A stretch of 34,866 nt of DNA from Candidatus Zixiibacteriota bacterium. GTDB taxonomy: Bacteria; Zixibacteria; MSB-5A5; GN15; FEB-12. Location of the stretch: NCBI GenBank assembly GCA_024276275.1, contig JAJRXM010000004.1:1-34866 (forward strand). The letters run 5' to 3'. Positions 27,685 to 34,824 of the stretch are shown here, piece by piece; position 1 is the stretch's first letter, and every line of letters begins with the position of its first letter. The notes below the pieces were generated by a model. It searched no databases. It saw only the letters and a list, made by a program, of their open reading frames with translations, and was not told the DNA's origin. Both the position numbers and the translations under genes were made by a program.

Positions 27685-29748
27685 GTGAAGAGGGTTATGT
27701 TCAGGCGACCGATAAAAGAGATTAACGCAGAATTCAAAGCCGAAGAAAAATACTTAGACAGTATTCATAGAACGGTTCGTGAAAGCTGTATCGCTGCGTC
27801 GATGAACAAAAAAGAAATAGCGGCTGTTCTGCTGGCTATTGAAGAGGGAGCTACCAATATAATTCGGCATGCCTATCTCTATGAAAAAGGCTTAATGAGA
27901 GTACGAATTGTTATATACAAAAAGCTTGTAGTTTTTTCTCTTATTGATTACGGAAGATCATTCCAGCCAGATAACTCCGGAAAAGTAGATTTACAGAAAT
28001 TAGTTGAATCAGGTCGCAAAGGCGGTTTGGGTTTTTACATGATTCAAAAAATCATGGATTCTGTTGAGTATATTTCTACAGCGAGTTTTAATGAACTACG
28101 TATGATAAAGCGTGTTCACGAAGACAAACAGAAGGGGAAACCTTTTTTACGACGAATGTTTTCTCTCAGGTTTAAATTTTCTTTTTGGACTTTTATTATT
28201 GTCTCCATGATTATCGGAGGTTCAATATATTATTTTGATCACGAAATATCGAGCGGGATGTACAGGCACAAGCATGAAACCGTACAAGCTCTTGGAAAAA
28301 CTATTGCAGCTCAAGCTGCAGGTCATATTTTAAATAATAGGTCGGATGTGGAATTTGATGAGCTAATTATTAGCTATAAACTTGCCAACCCGGAACTGAA
28401 ACAGATTGTGTTGACAGATGCTTCCAATATGATACGAGCACATTCTGATGATATTTTATTTATAAGAAAAAGATATCTTCCCCCGAAAGGATTAAATGCC
28501 GATAAACTAAATACTCCACAGTCTTTTACTATAGACAACAACGAAGTTGTTTTTTTAGTAGTACCTATCAAACTTGGCGAAAATATAATTGGAAAAGTGA
28601 ATATTATATATACGACAGAAGGTATTTACAACAGACTGTCTGATACCCGTAAACAGATATTTCTCCTGACTGTTATTCTGCTCGTTTTTGGGATTCTAGG
28701 GATATACCTCTTGTCGGATTATTTTGTAAGCCCGATACTTAAAATCACTCACCGAATCAGAAGGTTTACATCGGGAGATTTGGAAACGGAATTACCGCTT
28801 GAGGGTGCAGAAGAATTTTTTGAAATTTCAAAAGCGTTTAACCAAATGATAACACGCTTATCACAAGATAGAAAAAATATCGCCGCTCGTGAGAAAATGG
28901 CAAAAGAGATAGAAGTTGCCTCAGAAATTCAAAAAACGCTTCTACCGCATAATCTTCCTAAGATTAAAAATCTAGATGTTGAAACATTTTATAGAGCTGC
29001 TTCCTTAGTAGGAGGAGACTTGTATGATGTTTTTGAAGTTACTGATAAAAGATATTGTATGGTTGTTGCCGATGTTTCCGGCAAAGGAGTACCGGCATCA
29101 TTAGTAATGTCAATGCTTCGTACTGTAATACAGATTCATGTAAAGCAAATGCTCTCTCCCAAAAAGATTATTGTTTCGGTAAACGATTACATGAAAAGAA
29201 ATATACCTCCCGGAATGTTTGTAACTGTATTTCTGTTGATGTATGATAGCAATGATAATTCTATCTCATATGTTTCAGCAGGACATAACCCGATGTTTTA
29301 TTATAATAGTGTACGGGGAGAAATCGAAGAATTGAATCCAAAAGGTATGCCTGTCGGTTTACCCACGAAAGAAAATGACAAATTTGAGACTTCGATAATC
29401 GAAGAAAAAAGAATAATGCAGGAAAAAGATTGTTTCCTTATTTTTACAGACGGGATAACCGAAGCTCCTAATCGTGAAGGTAACCTGTTTGGTATAGAAC
29501 GTCTAAAAGAACTTATTAAATCAAATGCGAGTAATTCGTCAATATCTATGACAAAGCTTTCAGATACTCTTGTTGATAATATCGACGACTATACCGGTTT
29601 TCATAAATCTGTTGATGATATAAGCTTTATTGTAGCTCAGTACAAAAAAGAAAAACCGAAATCGGACAGTAAGATAAATAAAAAGCAAAACAACAACTTA
29701 CCGATTAAGAACATCAATGTAGATTCAAACGACTCTGAAACACCCTAA
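27685..29748 (+). CDS. RsbW-like kinase / membrane sensor / RsbU-like PP2C phosphatase fusion
   Basis: A 687-residue regulator joining two opposing activities. Residues 1-150 are a GHKL ATPase of the RsbW/SpoIIAB type: N-box EEGATNIIRHAY (53-64), IDYGRSF (87-93) and the glycine-rich GGLGFYMI (113-120). A helix (about 165-185), an extracytoplasmic sensor region of about 135 residues and a second helix (about 324-346) follow, then HAMP (347-398). The SpoIIE-type PP2C phosphatase (about 410-653) keeps its metal aspartates: D445 in GGDLYD, D463 in ADVSGKG, D589 in FTDGITE, D644 and D645 in DDISF. It probably phosphorylates and dephosphorylates the STAS protein encoded 64 bases downstream. The start is GTG 27685 or ATG 27697; no well-spaced SD settles it. 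Confidence 0.88.
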   Translation: MKRVMFRRPIKEINAEFKAEEKYLDSIHRTVRESCIAASMNKKEIAAVLLAIEEGATNIIRHAYLYEKGLMRVRIVIYKKLVVFSLIDYGRSFQPDNSGKVDLQKLVESGRKGGLGFYMIQKIMDSVEYISTASFNELRMIKRVHEDKQKGKPFLRRMFSLRFKFSFWTFIIVSMIIGGSIYYFDHEISSGMYRHKHETVQALGKTIAAQAAGHILNNRSDVEFDELIISYKLANPELKQIVLTDASNMIRAHSDDILFIRKRYLPPKGLNADKLNTPQSFTIDNNEVVFLVVPIKLGENIIGKVNIIYTTEGIYNRLSDTRKQIFLLTVILLVFGILGIYLLSDYFVSPILKITHRIRRFTSGDLETELPLEGAEEFFEISKAFNQMITRLSQDRKNIAAREKMAKEIEVASEIQKTLLPHNLPKIKNLDVETFYRAASLVGGDLYDVFEVTDKRYCMVVADVSGKGVPASLVMSMLRTVIQIHVKQMLSPKKIIVSVNDYMKRNIPPGMFVTVFLLMYDSNDNSISYVSAGHNPMFYYNSVRGEIEELNPKGMPVGLPTKENDKFETSIIEEKRIMQEKDCFLIFTDGITEAPNREGNLFGIERLKELIKSNASNSSISMTKLSDTLVDNIDDYTGFHKSVDDISFIVAQYKKEKPKSDSKINKKQNNNLPIKNINVDSNDSETP

Positions 29749-29775: not shown

Positions 29776-29813
29776 TTAATTATCCTGAGTGATACTTATT
29801 ATGGGATAATTAA
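29776..29813 (+). promoter_or_regulatory. 10-bp inverted repeat over the STAS gene's ribosome-binding site
   Basis: TTAATTATCC (29776-29785) and GGATAATTAA (29804-29813) are perfect inverted arms around an 18-base loop. The right arm includes most of the GGGAT SD and reaches the first base of the start codon, so an RNA hairpin here would hide the ribosome-binding site. As DNA it could be an operator. Confidence 0.5.
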
Positions 29814-30205
29814 TGGACAATATTGCAATATCATTAAAAGAAAATAACACGAAAGATGTCTCCGAAATTCGGGTTGACGGTGTCATTGATACGCTGACAG
29901 CTGCTGAGCTAGAAGAAGTAATCGAATCTCTTTTGAAAAGAGACCGGTTTAAGATGATAATAGACTTAGCTGGTGTTGACTATATCTCTTCAGCCGGATG
30001 GGGAATCTTTATTTCACACATAAGAGATATTCATGAAAACGGTGGAGACTTAAAGCTAGCCAATATGATTGCCAATGTCTCTGAAATATATGAATTACTC
30101 GAGTTTGATAATGTCTTAAAAGCGTATGCATCTCTTGAAGAAGCACGTGATGATTTTGCCGAAATAGATTATTCTGAAAATATAAAAAAAAAAGACCGAC
30201 TATAA
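29813..30205 (+). CDS. STAS-domain anti-sigma factor antagonist (frame continues after an A10 tract)
   Basis: A 130-residue STAS protein of the RsbV/SpoIIAA type, the switch substrate of partner-switching systems. The core is DLAGVDYISSAGWGIFI, in which S60 aligns with the phosphorylated serine of SpoIIAA (MDSSGLG). It follows the kinase/phosphatase fusion, its likely enzyme. The frame ends just after a run of ten A (30184-30193). In the -1 frame coding continues without a stop and without any plausible internal start for 95 codons to 30480, so the full protein is probably about 222 residues. Slippage or frameshifting could yield both forms; an assembly error or mutation is the simpler alternative. 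The ATG has GGGAT six bases upstream. Confidence 0.88.
   Translation: MDNIAISLKENNTKDVSEIRVDGVIDTLTAAELEEVIESLLKRDRFKMIIDLAGVDYISSAGWGIFISHIRDIHENGGDLKLANMIANVSEIYELLEFDNVLKAYASLEEARDDFAEIDYSENIKKKDRL
30184..30193 (+). other. A10 slippery tract linking the STAS frame to its C-terminal extension
   Basis: Ten consecutive A followed by G. In the STAS frame the codons are ATA AAA AAA AAA GAC and a stop comes three codons later. A -1 ribosomal shift on A-AAA-AAA, or one extra A added by RNA polymerase, joins it to the 95-codon extension. Runs of this length are known substrates for transcriptional slippage, but also for sequencing errors. Confidence 0.55.
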
Positions 30206-30480
30206 CTAATCTTACCGTTTCAGAAGCTAAACCCTCAGTAGCAACAAAATCAGTTAACATAATTGAAGATAGAAAAATTACGGAACATGATTCTATTGAG
30301 TCAGCCGTTCTGAAAGTTGTTAAAAATGACCCGTTTGCCTCAATCGGTGAGATAAAATACGAGATAAATTTCGCCAATGATTCATTGCAGGCGGGGTGGT
30401 GGAAAGTGTTTTTGGTGTTAAAGGAGAATAAACTTCTTAAAAGAAGGTCGCGGTTTCGGTTTGGAAGAAAATTCTATTAA
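30193..30480 (+). other. C-terminal extension of the STAS protein in the -1 frame (winged-helix-like)
   Basis: Ninety-five codons open from AGA 30193 to TAA 30478-30480, lacking ATG and any upstream SD, so not a separate gene. After a Thr/Lys-rich linker comes SIESAVLKVVKNDPFASIGE, a second short helix, GWWKVFLVLKENKLL and a basic tail KRRSRFRFGRKFY. Helix lengths and the basic wing suggest a winged-helix nucleic-acid or protein-binding domain; this is inference from pattern only. The codon use matches the surrounding genes, supporting real coding. Confidence 0.6.
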
Positions 30481-30558: not shown

Positions 30559-32202
30559 ATGACCTTCGAACTGTCTTTGATATTGTTGCTTCTCTTATGC
30601 GTTGGAATTCTTGCAGTATTACTTTATAACAGAATTAAGGGCGAAAGAAAACAAGCAGCATTTATACAAAATTTGTCTTTGCATGAATTGACAGATTTTA
30701 TGAAAAAAAACTCCCTTGACGGGTCTGTCTCAGTAGTTGCCAGGTTGTTTTCTGATATCTTAAAAAGTAAATTTAAATGTGAATATATTATCTTTTTGCG
30801 AAAAAAAAGAGGTGCGTTAGAACTGAACTATTATCACGGTATAAAATCGTTTAATCGCAATGATTTTAAGATAGATTATTCTAAAGAACTGATGCAGGTC
30901 TTAAAACAAAGTTTTTTCCCCCGTGATGTTGCAGAGATTGAAAAATTTTTAACAAAAAAATTTATTTCAAAAATTAACCATTTTCATGTGGACAAATTTT
31001 TCCCCGTTTTTTGGAGAGATAACCTGTACGGATTTTATGTTATTAAAAGTAACAACAAAATAAATTCTGATTCTTTACAAAATGTTATTGCTCAGATGGT
31101 ACAATCATTAGCGGCAGCTTATCATATCAAATGGCATGAATCAAAACTTGAACAAGTAAATCTCCATACTGACGGAACAAATGTGATAAATCAAGTAACC
31201 GAGGGAGAACATCAGGTTGAACGCGTCTTAAACTTAATGAAATATAAAAAGGCTGATGCTATAATTACTCAGGTAGTAAATACATTGCAAGATGCCTCGC
31301 AAGTGGATAATCTTATTTTTATTTATGCGGGCAAAGACCTAAGTACGACAAAACATATTTTTGTAGGGAAACAACCAAAGAACTTAAAAATTCCTACTAA
31401 TACGGAATTAAATAACGTTGACAACTTTATTAACCCGGAAGCAATTGTTCCGTTGGAATATCTTTCAAAAAAAATACCTGATAATAATTCCTGGGTTGAC
31501 AGTTTAAAACAAAATAATGTTAATCGTATAGCATCGTTTCCTCTTTCATCAAAAAGAAAGGGGTTGTTGGCGTGGAAACAAAACGGAGAATCATCCGAGA
31601 TAAAACAGAAGATAGATGTTTACAGAAAATATCTGGTGAATATATTTGAAAATGTGGAAGAGTTGGAGTCTCTTGAGGAACTTTCGTATACCGATAATCT
31701 AACTGCACTTGCCAATAGAAGATATTTTTATAAACGTCTTTATGAAGAGCTTAATAGAGCAGAAAGATATAGCCGTAAACTTGCACTTATTATTTTTGAT
31801 ATTGATGAATTGAAAACAATCAATGATACGTACGGTCATCAGGCCGGAGATGAGATTATAAAGCAGGTTGGCTTAATACTAAAAACATCTATTCGTACTA
31901 TTGATGTTGTCGCAAGGTATGGTGGTGATGAGTTTTGTGTTATAATGCCGGAGTCAGATCAGGAAACTTGCATGAAGTTTGTCGAAAGGCTTCAAAAGAA
32001 AATCCAAACGACAGAATTTACTTTGAATCAAGCTGATAAATCAATCTCCTGTACAATTTCTATGGGAATATCAATTTATCCTGATCATGCACAAAAGAGT
32101 GAAAAACTGCTTTATTCTGCTGATATGGCTCTTTTGAAGGCAAAAGAATCCGGTCGAAATAGAGCTTTGGTAGCTTCCTCTTCTTCTGTCCAATCCAAGT
32201 AA
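30559..32202 (+). CDS. Membrane-anchored diguanylate cyclase (GGDEF)
   Basis: Makes cyclic di-GMP from two GTP. An N-terminal membrane helix (about 4-23) is followed by two weakly GAF-like sensor regions (about 40-190 and 225-365) and a GGDEF domain (about 375-537). The active site is intact: DNLTALANRR, FDIDELKTIND with the first metal aspartate, and RYGGDEF (455-459 for the signature). RTID at 446-449 matches the RxxD inhibitory site, so product inhibition is expected. No EAL domain is present. It has its own candidate promoter and stands between a partner-switching module and polysaccharide export genes, which fits control of matrix production, though this link is only positional. Confidence 0.93.
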   Translation: MTFELSLILLLLLCVGILAVLLYNRIKGERKQAAFIQNLSLHELTDFMKKNSLDGSVSVVARLFSDILKSKFKCEYIIFLRKKRGALELNYYHGIKSFNRNDFKIDYSKELMQVLKQSFFPRDVAEIEKFLTKKFISKINHFHVDKFFPVFWRDNLYGFYVIKSNNKINSDSLQNVIAQMVQSLAAAYHIKWHESKLEQVNLHTDGTNVINQVTEGEHQVERVLNLMKYKKADAIITQVVNTLQDASQVDNLIFIYAGKDLSTTKHIFVGKQPKNLKIPTNTELNNVDNFINPEAIVPLEYLSKKIPDNNSWVDSLKQNNVNRIASFPLSSKRKGLLAWKQNGESSEIKQKIDVYRKYLVNIFENVEELESLEELSYTDNLTALANRRYFYKRLYEELNRAERYSRKLALIIFDIDELKTINDTYGHQAGDEIIKQVGLILKTSIRTIDVVARYGGDEFCVIMPESDQETCMKFVERLQKKIQTTEFTLNQADKSISCTISMGISIYPDHAQKSEKLLYSADMALLKAKESGRNRALVASSSSVQSK

Positions 32203-32335: not shown

Positions 32336-33322
32336 ATGAAAAGGATTTTCAATACATTACTTATAGCAATAACTTTTTTCTTGTTGTTACAATCAACAAG
32401 TTCAGCACAAAGTTATAAAATAGGTAGTGGAGATATTTTAGAGGTACGTTTTTGGCAGGAAGCCACTCTTAATACTACCGTTCGTGTAGCCGAAAACGGT
32501 AAAATTACAATCGATATCATCGGTGAATTAGATGCGTTCGGTAAGACAACTAATCAACTACAAGATGATATTGTTCGTCAAATGTCCAGATTAAATGCAC
32601 GTATTTCTCAAGTTGTGGTTCGGGTTATTGAGTTTAACTATCAACATGTTTTTCTAAAAGGTCAGATTACTACTCCGGGAAAGCATAATTTTGAAAAAAT
32701 ACCTGATTTATGGACTATTATTAACGAGGGTGGCGGAATTACTGAATACGGTGATTTATCGAGGGTTACTATAATTCGTGGTGGTAAAGAGGCAGGAAAA
32801 ATTGAAGTTATCAATGTTGCCGAAGCTATCGAAAACGGTACGCTTAACAAACTGCCTAAAATTAATAGACAGGATACTATCGAAATTCCACGTACATCGG
32901 CAAATCTTCCATCCGGTGAATTTTCTCAACAAATAGGTGCTAAAAACCAATTTTATGTAATCGGAGCGGTAAATACTCCGGGACCGTTAGTATTTGAAGA
33001 CAATATCGATATTTTGGATGCCTTAGCTCTTGCCGGCGGTCCGACAGAAACTGCTGATTTAAGCAGGGCTCGTATTATTTCAAAAGACGGAATATATGCA
33101 CAAACTATTCAAATTGATTTGGAGAAGTATTCTGTAACCGGTAATGTACCGCGTTATTTTCTAAAAAAAGAAGATACTTTTTTGCTTCCAAATGATAGAG
33201 GTGGTTTTATTGGAAGAAATATTGGGACTATCGGTGCTGTTGCCGGAGTGATTACTTCAGGCCTCCTGATTTATCTGCAGTTCGAAAGAAATAATACTAC
33301 TACAACCGGAGGACTTCGGTAA
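32336..33322 (+). CDS. Wza-like polysaccharide export protein (SLBB repeats)
   Basis: An outer-membrane or periplasmic polysaccharide exporter of 328 residues. The signal peptide is cleaved near SSA/QSY. A Poly_export domain (about 26-105, with YKIGSGDILEVRFW) is followed by two SLBB domains (about 106-185, VFLKGQITTPGKHNF, and 205-285, FYVIGAVNTPGPLVF). Classical Wza is a lipoprotein, but no lipobox cysteine is present here. Instead the C-terminus has a hydrophobic helix (about 293-315), which may span the outer membrane or anchor the protein otherwise. AGGA lies eight bases before the ATG. The next gene starts two bases after the stop, so it is co-translated with the chain-length protein. 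Confidence 0.9.
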   Translation: MKRIFNTLLIAITFFLLLQSTSSAQSYKIGSGDILEVRFWQEATLNTTVRVAENGKITIDIIGELDAFGKTTNQLQDDIVRQMSRLNARISQVVVRVIEFNYQHVFLKGQITTPGKHNFEKIPDLWTIINEGGGITEYGDLSRVTIIRGGKEAGKIEVINVAEAIENGTLNKLPKINRQDTIEIPRTSANLPSGEFSQQIGAKNQFYVIGAVNTPGPLVFEDNIDILDALALAGGPTETADLSRARIISKDGIYAQTIQIDLEKYSVTGNVPRYFLKKEDTFLLPNDRGGFIGRNIGTIGAVAGVITSGLLIYLQFERNNTTTTGGLR

Positions 33323-33324
33323 TT

Positions 33325-34824
33325 ATGTTAAAACCGAAACCTGTAAAATCTTTAGATATCAGAGAAATACTGACAATTCTCAAAAAAAGGAAATGGCTCA
33401 TAATCATTCCGATGATTTTAGTAACCGGAATAGCGTACGGTGCTACATTTTTTATGGCACCTAAATATGAATCGTCAACTATTGTGTGGATAGACCGTCC
33501 CTCTAATGTCTCTTCAGAGCTTCAAAGAATATTGGGCGGTACTAATCGTCGTGAAAGCAGAGAAGAACAGCGTAATCGCAGGTTAGCAATCGAGGCGGAG
33601 TTAACATCGCAAGGGTACTTGTTTCAACTGATTGAAAATTTACGTATTGATGAAGATCCGGATATATCTCGAGAGGCAGCCAAATTACGAGAAACAAATA
33701 CTACAATTTCCTTAGAGCAGATAAAATTTAATTTATTGGTAGAAAAATTACGAGAACAAATATCAGTTTCGTTTTACGGCTCTGACCAAATAAAGATAAC
33801 AGTCGAATCGGAAAGTCCTATTCTTGCCAGAGATATTGCCGAGCAGTTAACTACTATTCTTGAGGCAGAAAAAACAAAATATGAAATGCAAAAGATTTCG
33901 GATAATCAGCGATTTACTGATGTACAGCTTAAAAAAACAGAACAGTATTATCAGTTAGCTATTGATTCTCTTAATGATGCCAGAGTCCGATTATCAAATC
34001 TGCAGCTTCCTGAAAATATAGCTTCTGAAGAGAATAGATTAGACATTCTTTCTACCATAGATAATATTGATTTGGAAACAGATGATTATCTGAATGCACA
34101 AAAATCTATACGTAAGCAGTTAAAAGAGTATGAACTTGATAACCTTACATTTAAGTTTTCTGATACGATGGTTGAATTACGAACTACTATCGACGGACTT
34201 ATCACCAGCTATGTAAATATGATGGAAAAATATACCTGGAATGATCAGAATGTTATCAATGTCAATATCCGTTTAAACGATAATACCAGGTTACTCGAAA
34301 ACACAATAAAATCAATTATTGAAAAAGAATTTGCCACATATCCTGAAAACCAAATGTCAATTCTTGTGAGAAGTTATATTGTCAGGGAAAATTTAGATAT
34401 TCTGAATTCAAAAAAACGAAAACTTAAACAATCCCTAAAAAGAATTGATGATAGTATCAATATGATTCCAAAGTTAGAGTCAGAAATCAATGAGCTTGTA
34501 AATCAAGTTGCTGATTATCGTCGCTATCGTGATGCATTTAAAACAGAAGAAACTACGGTAGGTCTTTTATCTGAGCGGGCAAAAGAGAGAACTACTTATA
34601 AAATTATAGAACCTGCGAAACTACCTCTTGAACCCTTTTGGCCAAATAAGCGTAATGTCATTTTAATCGGACTTGTTTTAGGAGTTGTCTTAGGTGGTGC
34701 TTTTGTCTTTTTGTTTGAACTGTTAGATAATTCATTTAAAAGAGTTGAAGATATTGAGGATGAGTTAGGTGTAAGGGTAGTGGCTACTATTCCTAAAATT
34801 GAAAAATATCATTTATATCGGTGA
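33325..34824 (+). CDS. Wzz/GumC-like polysaccharide chain-length determinant
   Basis: A polysaccharide co-polymerase of 499 residues in the inner membrane. It has an N-terminal Wzz domain with a first transmembrane helix (about 24-46, KKRKWLIIIPMILVTGIAYG), a long periplasmic coiled-coil region (about 100-430), the PxxP-type segment LPLEPFWPNKR before the second transmembrane helix (about 440-465), and a short cytoplasmic tail with FKRVEDIEDELGV. The attached tyrosine kinase domain found in some members is absent; the next gene, starting five bases after the stop, may supply it. Part of an exopolysaccharide export operon with the preceding gene. Confidence 0.9.
   Translation: MLKPKPVKSLDIREILTILKKRKWLIIIPMILVTGIAYGATFFMAPKYESSTIVWIDRPSNVSSELQRILGGTNRRESREEQRNRRLAIEAELTSQGYLFQLIENLRIDEDPDISREAAKLRETNTTISLEQIKFNLLVEKLREQISVSFYGSDQIKITVESESPILARDIAEQLTTILEAEKTKYEMQKISDNQRFTDVQLKKTEQYYQLAIDSLNDARVRLSNLQLPENIASEENRLDILSTIDNIDLETDDYLNAQKSIRKQLKEYELDNLTFKFSDTMVELRTTIDGLITSYVNMMEKYTWNDQNVINVNIRLNDNTRLLENTIKSIIEKEFATYPENQMSILVRSYIVRENLDILNSKKRKLKQSLKRIDDSINMIPKLESEINELVNQVADYRRYRDAFKTEETTVGLLSERAKERTTYKIIEPAKLPLEPFWPNKRNVILIGLVLGVVLGGAFVFLFELLDNSFKRVEDIEDELGVRVVATIPKIEKYHLYR

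Follow-up and report, generated by a model that had tools for sequence, protein, structure and literature searches.

A conserved A10 run followed by stops in two frames suggests programmed slippage in a STAS antagonist gene of Zixibacteria

A gene encoding a STAS antagonist in a Zixibacteria genome enters a run of ten adenines and stops shortly after it, and a second reading frame remains open far beyond that point. The locus raises the question of whether such a gene is miscalled, phase-variable or really two genes, or whether it is built to give two proteins. Two products of one gene, STAS alone and STAS plus a C-terminal tail, had been proposed in a preliminary description made from the DNA letters only, and slippage between them remains the best-supported reading of the sequence evidence, given the conserved run and the unbroken fusions found elsewhere. 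We place the probability of programmed slippage at the A10 run, transcriptional by preference, at about 0.8; that slippage occurs, how much of it there is, that both proteins are made and what each does are all inferred, as there are no mRNA or peptide data. The window, meaning the whole stretch of DNA analyzed (34,866 nucleotides), carries the features listed below, where f1 to f19 are codes for families within the Zixibacteria phylum; G and L numbers used later refer to genomes and loci.

27685-29748, + strand: upstream neighbor with HATPase_c_2, HAMP and SpoIIE-type phosphatase domains (Pfam-type domain matches), the likely kinase/phosphatase of the STAS protein
29813-30205, + strand: ORF of the STAS antagonist in the zero frame, 130 aa (Pfam PF01740 STAS, E 7e-16; phospho-site motif YISSAGWG)
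30184-30193, + strand: putative slippage run A10, followed by G (A9-A11 kept in 60/60 tail-bearing f1/f4 orthologues)
30193-30480, + strand: -1-frame coding sequence of the tail, a linker plus an HTH-like domain (RKITEHD to RSRFRFGRKFY), with its stop at 30478-30480
30203-30205, + strand: zero-frame TAA three codons past the run, predicted to end the short STAS product
30207-30209, + strand: third-frame (+1) TAA four codons past the run, the second stop trap
30271-30477, + strand: C-terminal HTH-like domain proper, with three predicted helices and a basic SRFRFGR end
30559-32202, + strand: downstream neighbor, a GGDEF diguanylate cyclase (domain matches)

The 3′ end of the STAS ORF reads KKK-D-R-L-stop, its three lysines being encoded by the A10 run, and the run thus ends the STAS frame three codons ahead of a stop, as the preliminary description had stated. 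The long open -1 frame that it reported is also present, extending from upstream of the run through 94 codons beyond it, with a predicted translation that includes the peptides RPTITNLTVSEAK and ITEHDSIESAVLK; the third-frame stop had gone unmentioned. Its claim that the tail frame has no internal start stands only up to the first helix, a segment free of ATG, GTG and TTG, since TTG and GTG codons do occur later within the domain. An alternative reading makes the tail a gene of its own, with an internal start or with coupling to the STAS stop. A start codon of one of these three kinds lies ahead of tail helix 1 in 15 of 36 out-of-frame genes, and the coaB of G069 and G075, which has lost the run, stands as its own ORF and has an ATG immediately ahead of it. 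However, 21 of the 36, the window gene among them, have no such start, and a separate gene would account neither for the run, nor for its persistence in in-frame genes, nor for the stop traps; we find this reading scarcely credible.

The locus has the sequence features expected of a STAS anti-sigma-factor antagonist of the SpoIIAA/RsbV type, namely a PF01740 domain with the conserved serine motif and an adjoining RsbW-like ATPase and SpoIIE/PP2C phosphatase. The motif YISSAGWG, with S60 and S61, is invariant in an alignment of ten fusions. A SpoIIE relative lies upstream of the STAS gene in 48 f1 and 11 f4 loci, a GGDEF relative lies downstream in 50 f1 and 12 f4 loci, and a GenBank relative from Zixibacteria (L031) shows the same gene order as the window. 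In Pseudomonas, the HsbR-HsbA-HsbD and SiaABCD systems are reported to combine a kinase/phosphatase with an antagonist acting on a diguanylate cyclase (PMC5085249, PMC8457831). The likeness is one of arrangement, with a STAS-type antagonist next to phosphatase and diguanylate cyclase partners, and does not imply orthology. To our knowledge, neither a C-terminal HTH-like domain nor slippage has been described in those systems. Past the GGDEF gene, at window positions 32336-34824, reading of the ORFs indicates SLBB-type export-like and Wzz-like chain-length-like genes, and the STAS/HTH switch may therefore control exopolysaccharide.

To place this gene among its relatives, a profile of ten fusions (A1) was used, which recovered relatives in 109 of the 132 genomes of the phylum; 110 loci were read, and one further locus (L171), on another contig of G089, was left unscored. 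Homologues in which STAS and the same C-terminal domain form an unbroken fusion occur in many families, comprising all 45 tail-bearing genes outside f1 and f4, none of which has a run of at least nine at the corresponding place. The absence of any homologue with this domain, which would have refuted the original proposal, can thus be set aside, and the question of whether relatives keep the A-run receives a positive answer within f1 and f4. There, all 60 tail-bearing orthologues carry it, at about nucleotides 358-379 of the ORF and at a local GC content of 0.34-0.65, as A9 in eight genes, A10 in 51 and A11 in one. The tail frame relative to STAS is not constant in the same genes (0 in 24, -1 in 32 and +1 in four). 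The tail is missing from four f1/f4 loci. In G008 the run is lost and STAS alone is retained, G083 and G084 are divergent, and in G089 a contig end truncates the gene. The STAS tree requires at least 16 frame changes against only two changes of run presence, and a single gain of the run is likely, although not proved: few forks of the tree are well supported, and f3, which falls inside the clade with the run, sits on a long branch. Since most families have the unbroken fusion, the long STAS-HTH form is probably ancestral as judged from these sequences, and the f1/f4 clade would have gained the short form. One genome (G012) holds two STAS-tail genes of differing frame class, L116 and L130 (-1 with A10; +1 with A9), which are either paralogues or the product of a mixed bin.

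Homopolymers are error-prone, and most of the genomes are fragmented and presumably metagenome-assembled, one source record being titled MAG, so it could be argued that an assembly or sequencing error has split a gene that is truly one continuous fusion, all the more as unbroken fusion homologues exist. An error confined to a single genome is ruled out by the 60 orthologues. The break is seen in independent genomes, including the single-contig G056, G058, G059 and G060; the run is mostly an identical A10, with flanking indels accounting for some of the frame changes; and an error would neither place stop traps nor keep the run in in-frame genes. For the run itself this explanation is refuted, and we give it next to no credence otherwise. 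Poly-A is slippery for DNA polymerase too, and phase variation at the DNA level, in which replication slippage would toggle the tail between cells, could account for frame classes that vary within genera and that differ between the close pair G005 (A9, -1) and G075 (A10, 0). Genes with A9 or A11 do show that the run changes at the DNA level, and some replication slippage therefore occurs. Phase variation, however, predicts a variable length, and 51 of the 60 runs are exactly A10 although frames 0, -1 and +1 all occur; some frame changes are due to indels beside the run (G073 versus G071). It also predicts no double stops, but in-frame genes retain stop traps in both other frames. Moreover, the same device is found in coaBC and dnaX (see below), genes whose full products the cell is expected to require at all times. 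Phase variation is therefore a very unlikely explanation of the locus.

The run, as well as the stops that follow it, departs from what codon usage would produce. AAA makes up 54% of the lysine codons adjoining the run, yet the run is kept in 60/60 genes and is absent from the 45 fusions of other families; on this comparison, selection beyond codon usage conserves it. Runs of this length are also rare: on both strands, the window genome (G000, 3.39 Mb) contains only eight A10 runs, with exact counts of 698 for A8, 100 for A9 and none for A11, and other genomes contain three (G011), four (G009) or one (G016, the STAS gene). Because it is kept in all 60 orthologues and only eight A10 runs exist genome-wide, the run is far beyond chance. 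Both non-tail frames stop within 13 codons past the run in 58 of the 60 genes, compared with a mean of 23.6 and a maximum of 36 in 1000 trials of a synonymous null, in which the amino acids were held fixed and the same residues were recoded by local codon usage only. Typical sources of the stop traps are GTA-ACC (TAA) and GTT-GAG (TGA). Without slippage, out-of-frame stops should make no difference to an in-frame gene; among in-frame genes only, 23 of 24 have the double stops (null 8.0, maximum 15). A run of at least nine at a two-frame junction, with stops close to it in the alternative frames, meets the description of a slippage gene of the dnaX type. The 60 orthologues amount to a natural experiment in which run and stop traps stay constant and the template frame changes. 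Since both are kept while the frame varies, the sequence comparison indicates that run and stops are selected and that the frame of the template hardly matters, which is the pattern predicted for programmed slippage with STAS alone and STAS-HTH as its constant products. The out-of-frame tail is itself under purifying selection, with dN/dS of about 0.1-0.2 in close pairs (dN and dS of 0.01 and 0.12 for G071/G072, 0.06 and 0.28 for G073/G072, and 0.23 and 1.19 for G079/G077); more distant pairs were saturated and were excluded.

The run, its conservation, the stops, the constraint on the out-of-frame tail and the operon are directly observed; the mechanism that we propose to connect them is not. 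RNA polymerase transcribing the A10 run would allow the RNA-DNA hybrid to realign, giving mRNAs that differ in their number of As, so that the sequence past the run would be translated in each of its three frames. One of these would yield STAS with the linker and the HTH-like domain, and the remaining two would reach a stop within a few codons and yield STAS alone. The template frame would then set only the ratio of the products and could have drifted among the three frames while the run stayed. The upstream kinase/SpoIIE phosphatase may act on both forms. Through its HTH domain, the long form would connect the switch with a target, either nucleic acid or protein, and the short form would compete for the same partners, signal to the downstream diguanylate cyclase, or both. 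That the short form competes with the long form for the same kinase/phosphatase, or signals beside it, is probable but inferred only.

Ribosomes rather than RNA polymerase could slip or slide on the A-run and give the same two proteins, either by poly-A sliding or by -1 programmed frameshifting in the style of E. coli dnaX, which relies on ribosomal frameshifting (PMC5009743). The run does contain the slippery motif A AAA AAA/AAG, and one report describes ribosomes that slide along iterated AAA (PMC4363877). Against this, no structured RNA was found downstream of the run, with mean z scores of -0.19 and -0.11, and only 10 of the 60 genes have a Shine-Dalgarno-like stimulator. Simple -1 shifting would give no access to the tail in the four +1 genes, would leave the two stop traps unexplained and does not fit a tail frame without a single fixed relation to STAS (0/-1/+1 = 24/32/4). 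The run is, furthermore, fixed at about ten, a length that corresponds to the RNA-DNA hybrid within RNA polymerase (9-10 bp) and not to a heptamer. We regard a ribosomal origin as unlikely, with the reservation that ribosome sliding on poly-A cannot be separated from transcriptional slippage by sequence.

The tail has no Pfam match, and a search of PDB sequences with it returned one weak match only, to the HTH regulator PF0864 (E 0.07). A two-row AlphaFold model of the tail contains three helices with a mean pLDDT of 76 and a low-confidence basic C-terminus/wing region; a three-row model of the whole fusion reached a pLDDT of 51 and was not used. With VIA-align, the tail model matched a mixed set of HTH proteins (Fur, FapR, LmrR, Pax, I73R) at Z scores of about 5-7, none of the matches being specific. 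The tail is modeled as HTH-like with moderate confidence, and the wing of the helix/basic-wing pattern read initially from the translation is unconfirmed. DNA binding by the tail is an inference without binding data, and the direct link from phospho-switch to nucleic acid suggested at the outset likewise remains an inference, resting on a tail without a Pfam match and on this model. Gene callers split such genes or call them broken, and the tail domain is therefore probably missed in many annotations.

Productive slippage at homopolymers is documented in several bacteria. In bacterial RNA polymerase the hybrid measures 9-10 bp, and efficient slippage occurs in vivo at nine As (PMC5009743); Thermus dnaX gives tau and gamma through transcriptional slippage at an A9 run with stops in both other frames (PMC5009743, PMC1088944). 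The STAS gene resembles dnaX of Thermus thermophilus in having an A-run near the hybrid length, close stops in both non-tail frames and a short and a long product, the latter two predicted here; it differs in encoding a STAS antagonist, in its mostly A10 run and in a template frame that varies across species. In tssM (A11 in Citrobacter rodentium, and tssM3 of Yersinia), poly-A transcriptional slippage gives two length variants at 15-25%, and both forms of C. rodentium tssM1 were shown to be required (PMC4256274). As in the Zixibacteria gene, the frame of tssM differs between species, one having the gene in frame and the other not, but few genes are involved there, compared with 60 orthologues in two families, plus coaBC and dnaX, here. 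Homopolymer slippage in Shigella mxiE, spa13, spa33 and mxiA extends some products and truncates others (PMC4256274, PMC5009743); these genes belong to type III secretion and include no partner-switch antagonist. Our literature search found no paper joining slippage with STAS or an anti-sigma antagonist and none joining Zixibacteria with slippage, and the GeneTack paper mentions neither STAS nor anti-sigma.

The same arrangement recurs in other genes of these families. The only three A10 runs of G011 (3.0 Mb) lie in the STAS gene, coaBC and dnaX. Between CoaC and CoaB, an A9-A11 run is present in 48 f1/f4 loci (L172 of G000, L182, L183, L188; L192-L221; L252-L275), with CoaB in frame 0 in 32, -1 in 15 and +1 in one; no run of at least nine was present in the 16 coaBC loci read from other families. 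Double stops follow in 43 of the 48 (null 15.5, maximum 23, 500 trials). Where coaBC has no run, it is split into separate coaC and coaB in G022 (L256), G069 (L259) and G075 (L254) and is a plain fusion in G018 and G055. Once the run is lost, therefore, a gene settles, as STAS alone, as split coaC/coaB or as a plain fusion. In dnaX, read in f1 only, an A9-A11 run occurs at codon 391-437 in 25 of 30 loci (L222-L251, L185, L186, L191), as a run does in Thermus dnaX, with double stops in 22/22 testable loci (null 7.8, maximum 14); in dnaX of the window genome (L228) the run is A9 and the rest of tau is out of frame. We offer only tentatively, at somewhat below even odds, the generalization that in f1 and f4 a run of about A10 with double stops is a general two-product signal, read by efficient RNA polymerase slippage in several unrelated genes (STAS-HTH, coaBC, dnaX, perhaps yidC/mnmE, PP2C phosphatase and queG), with a downstream frame free to drift and a product ratio that may respond to physiology. 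The STAS antagonist and the coaBC fusion, the latter belonging to central metabolism, extend the short list of cellular genes that apparently use programmed slippage, and they make it testable whether one lineage built slippage into several genes together.

Some further observations concern individual loci. The coaBC gene of the window genome (L172, contig C2 of G000) has a second frame break farther downstream in CoaB, after KIKKIIKRWSFL and not at its A10 run. In two genera (L187 of G056 and L189 of G058), an A10 run marks the point where a YidC-like 3′ end meets the mnmE 5′ end. Others lie close to the C-terminal end of a PP2C-like phosphatase (L184 of G009) and of a QueG-like protein (L180 of G027), where they would give alternative short C-termini.
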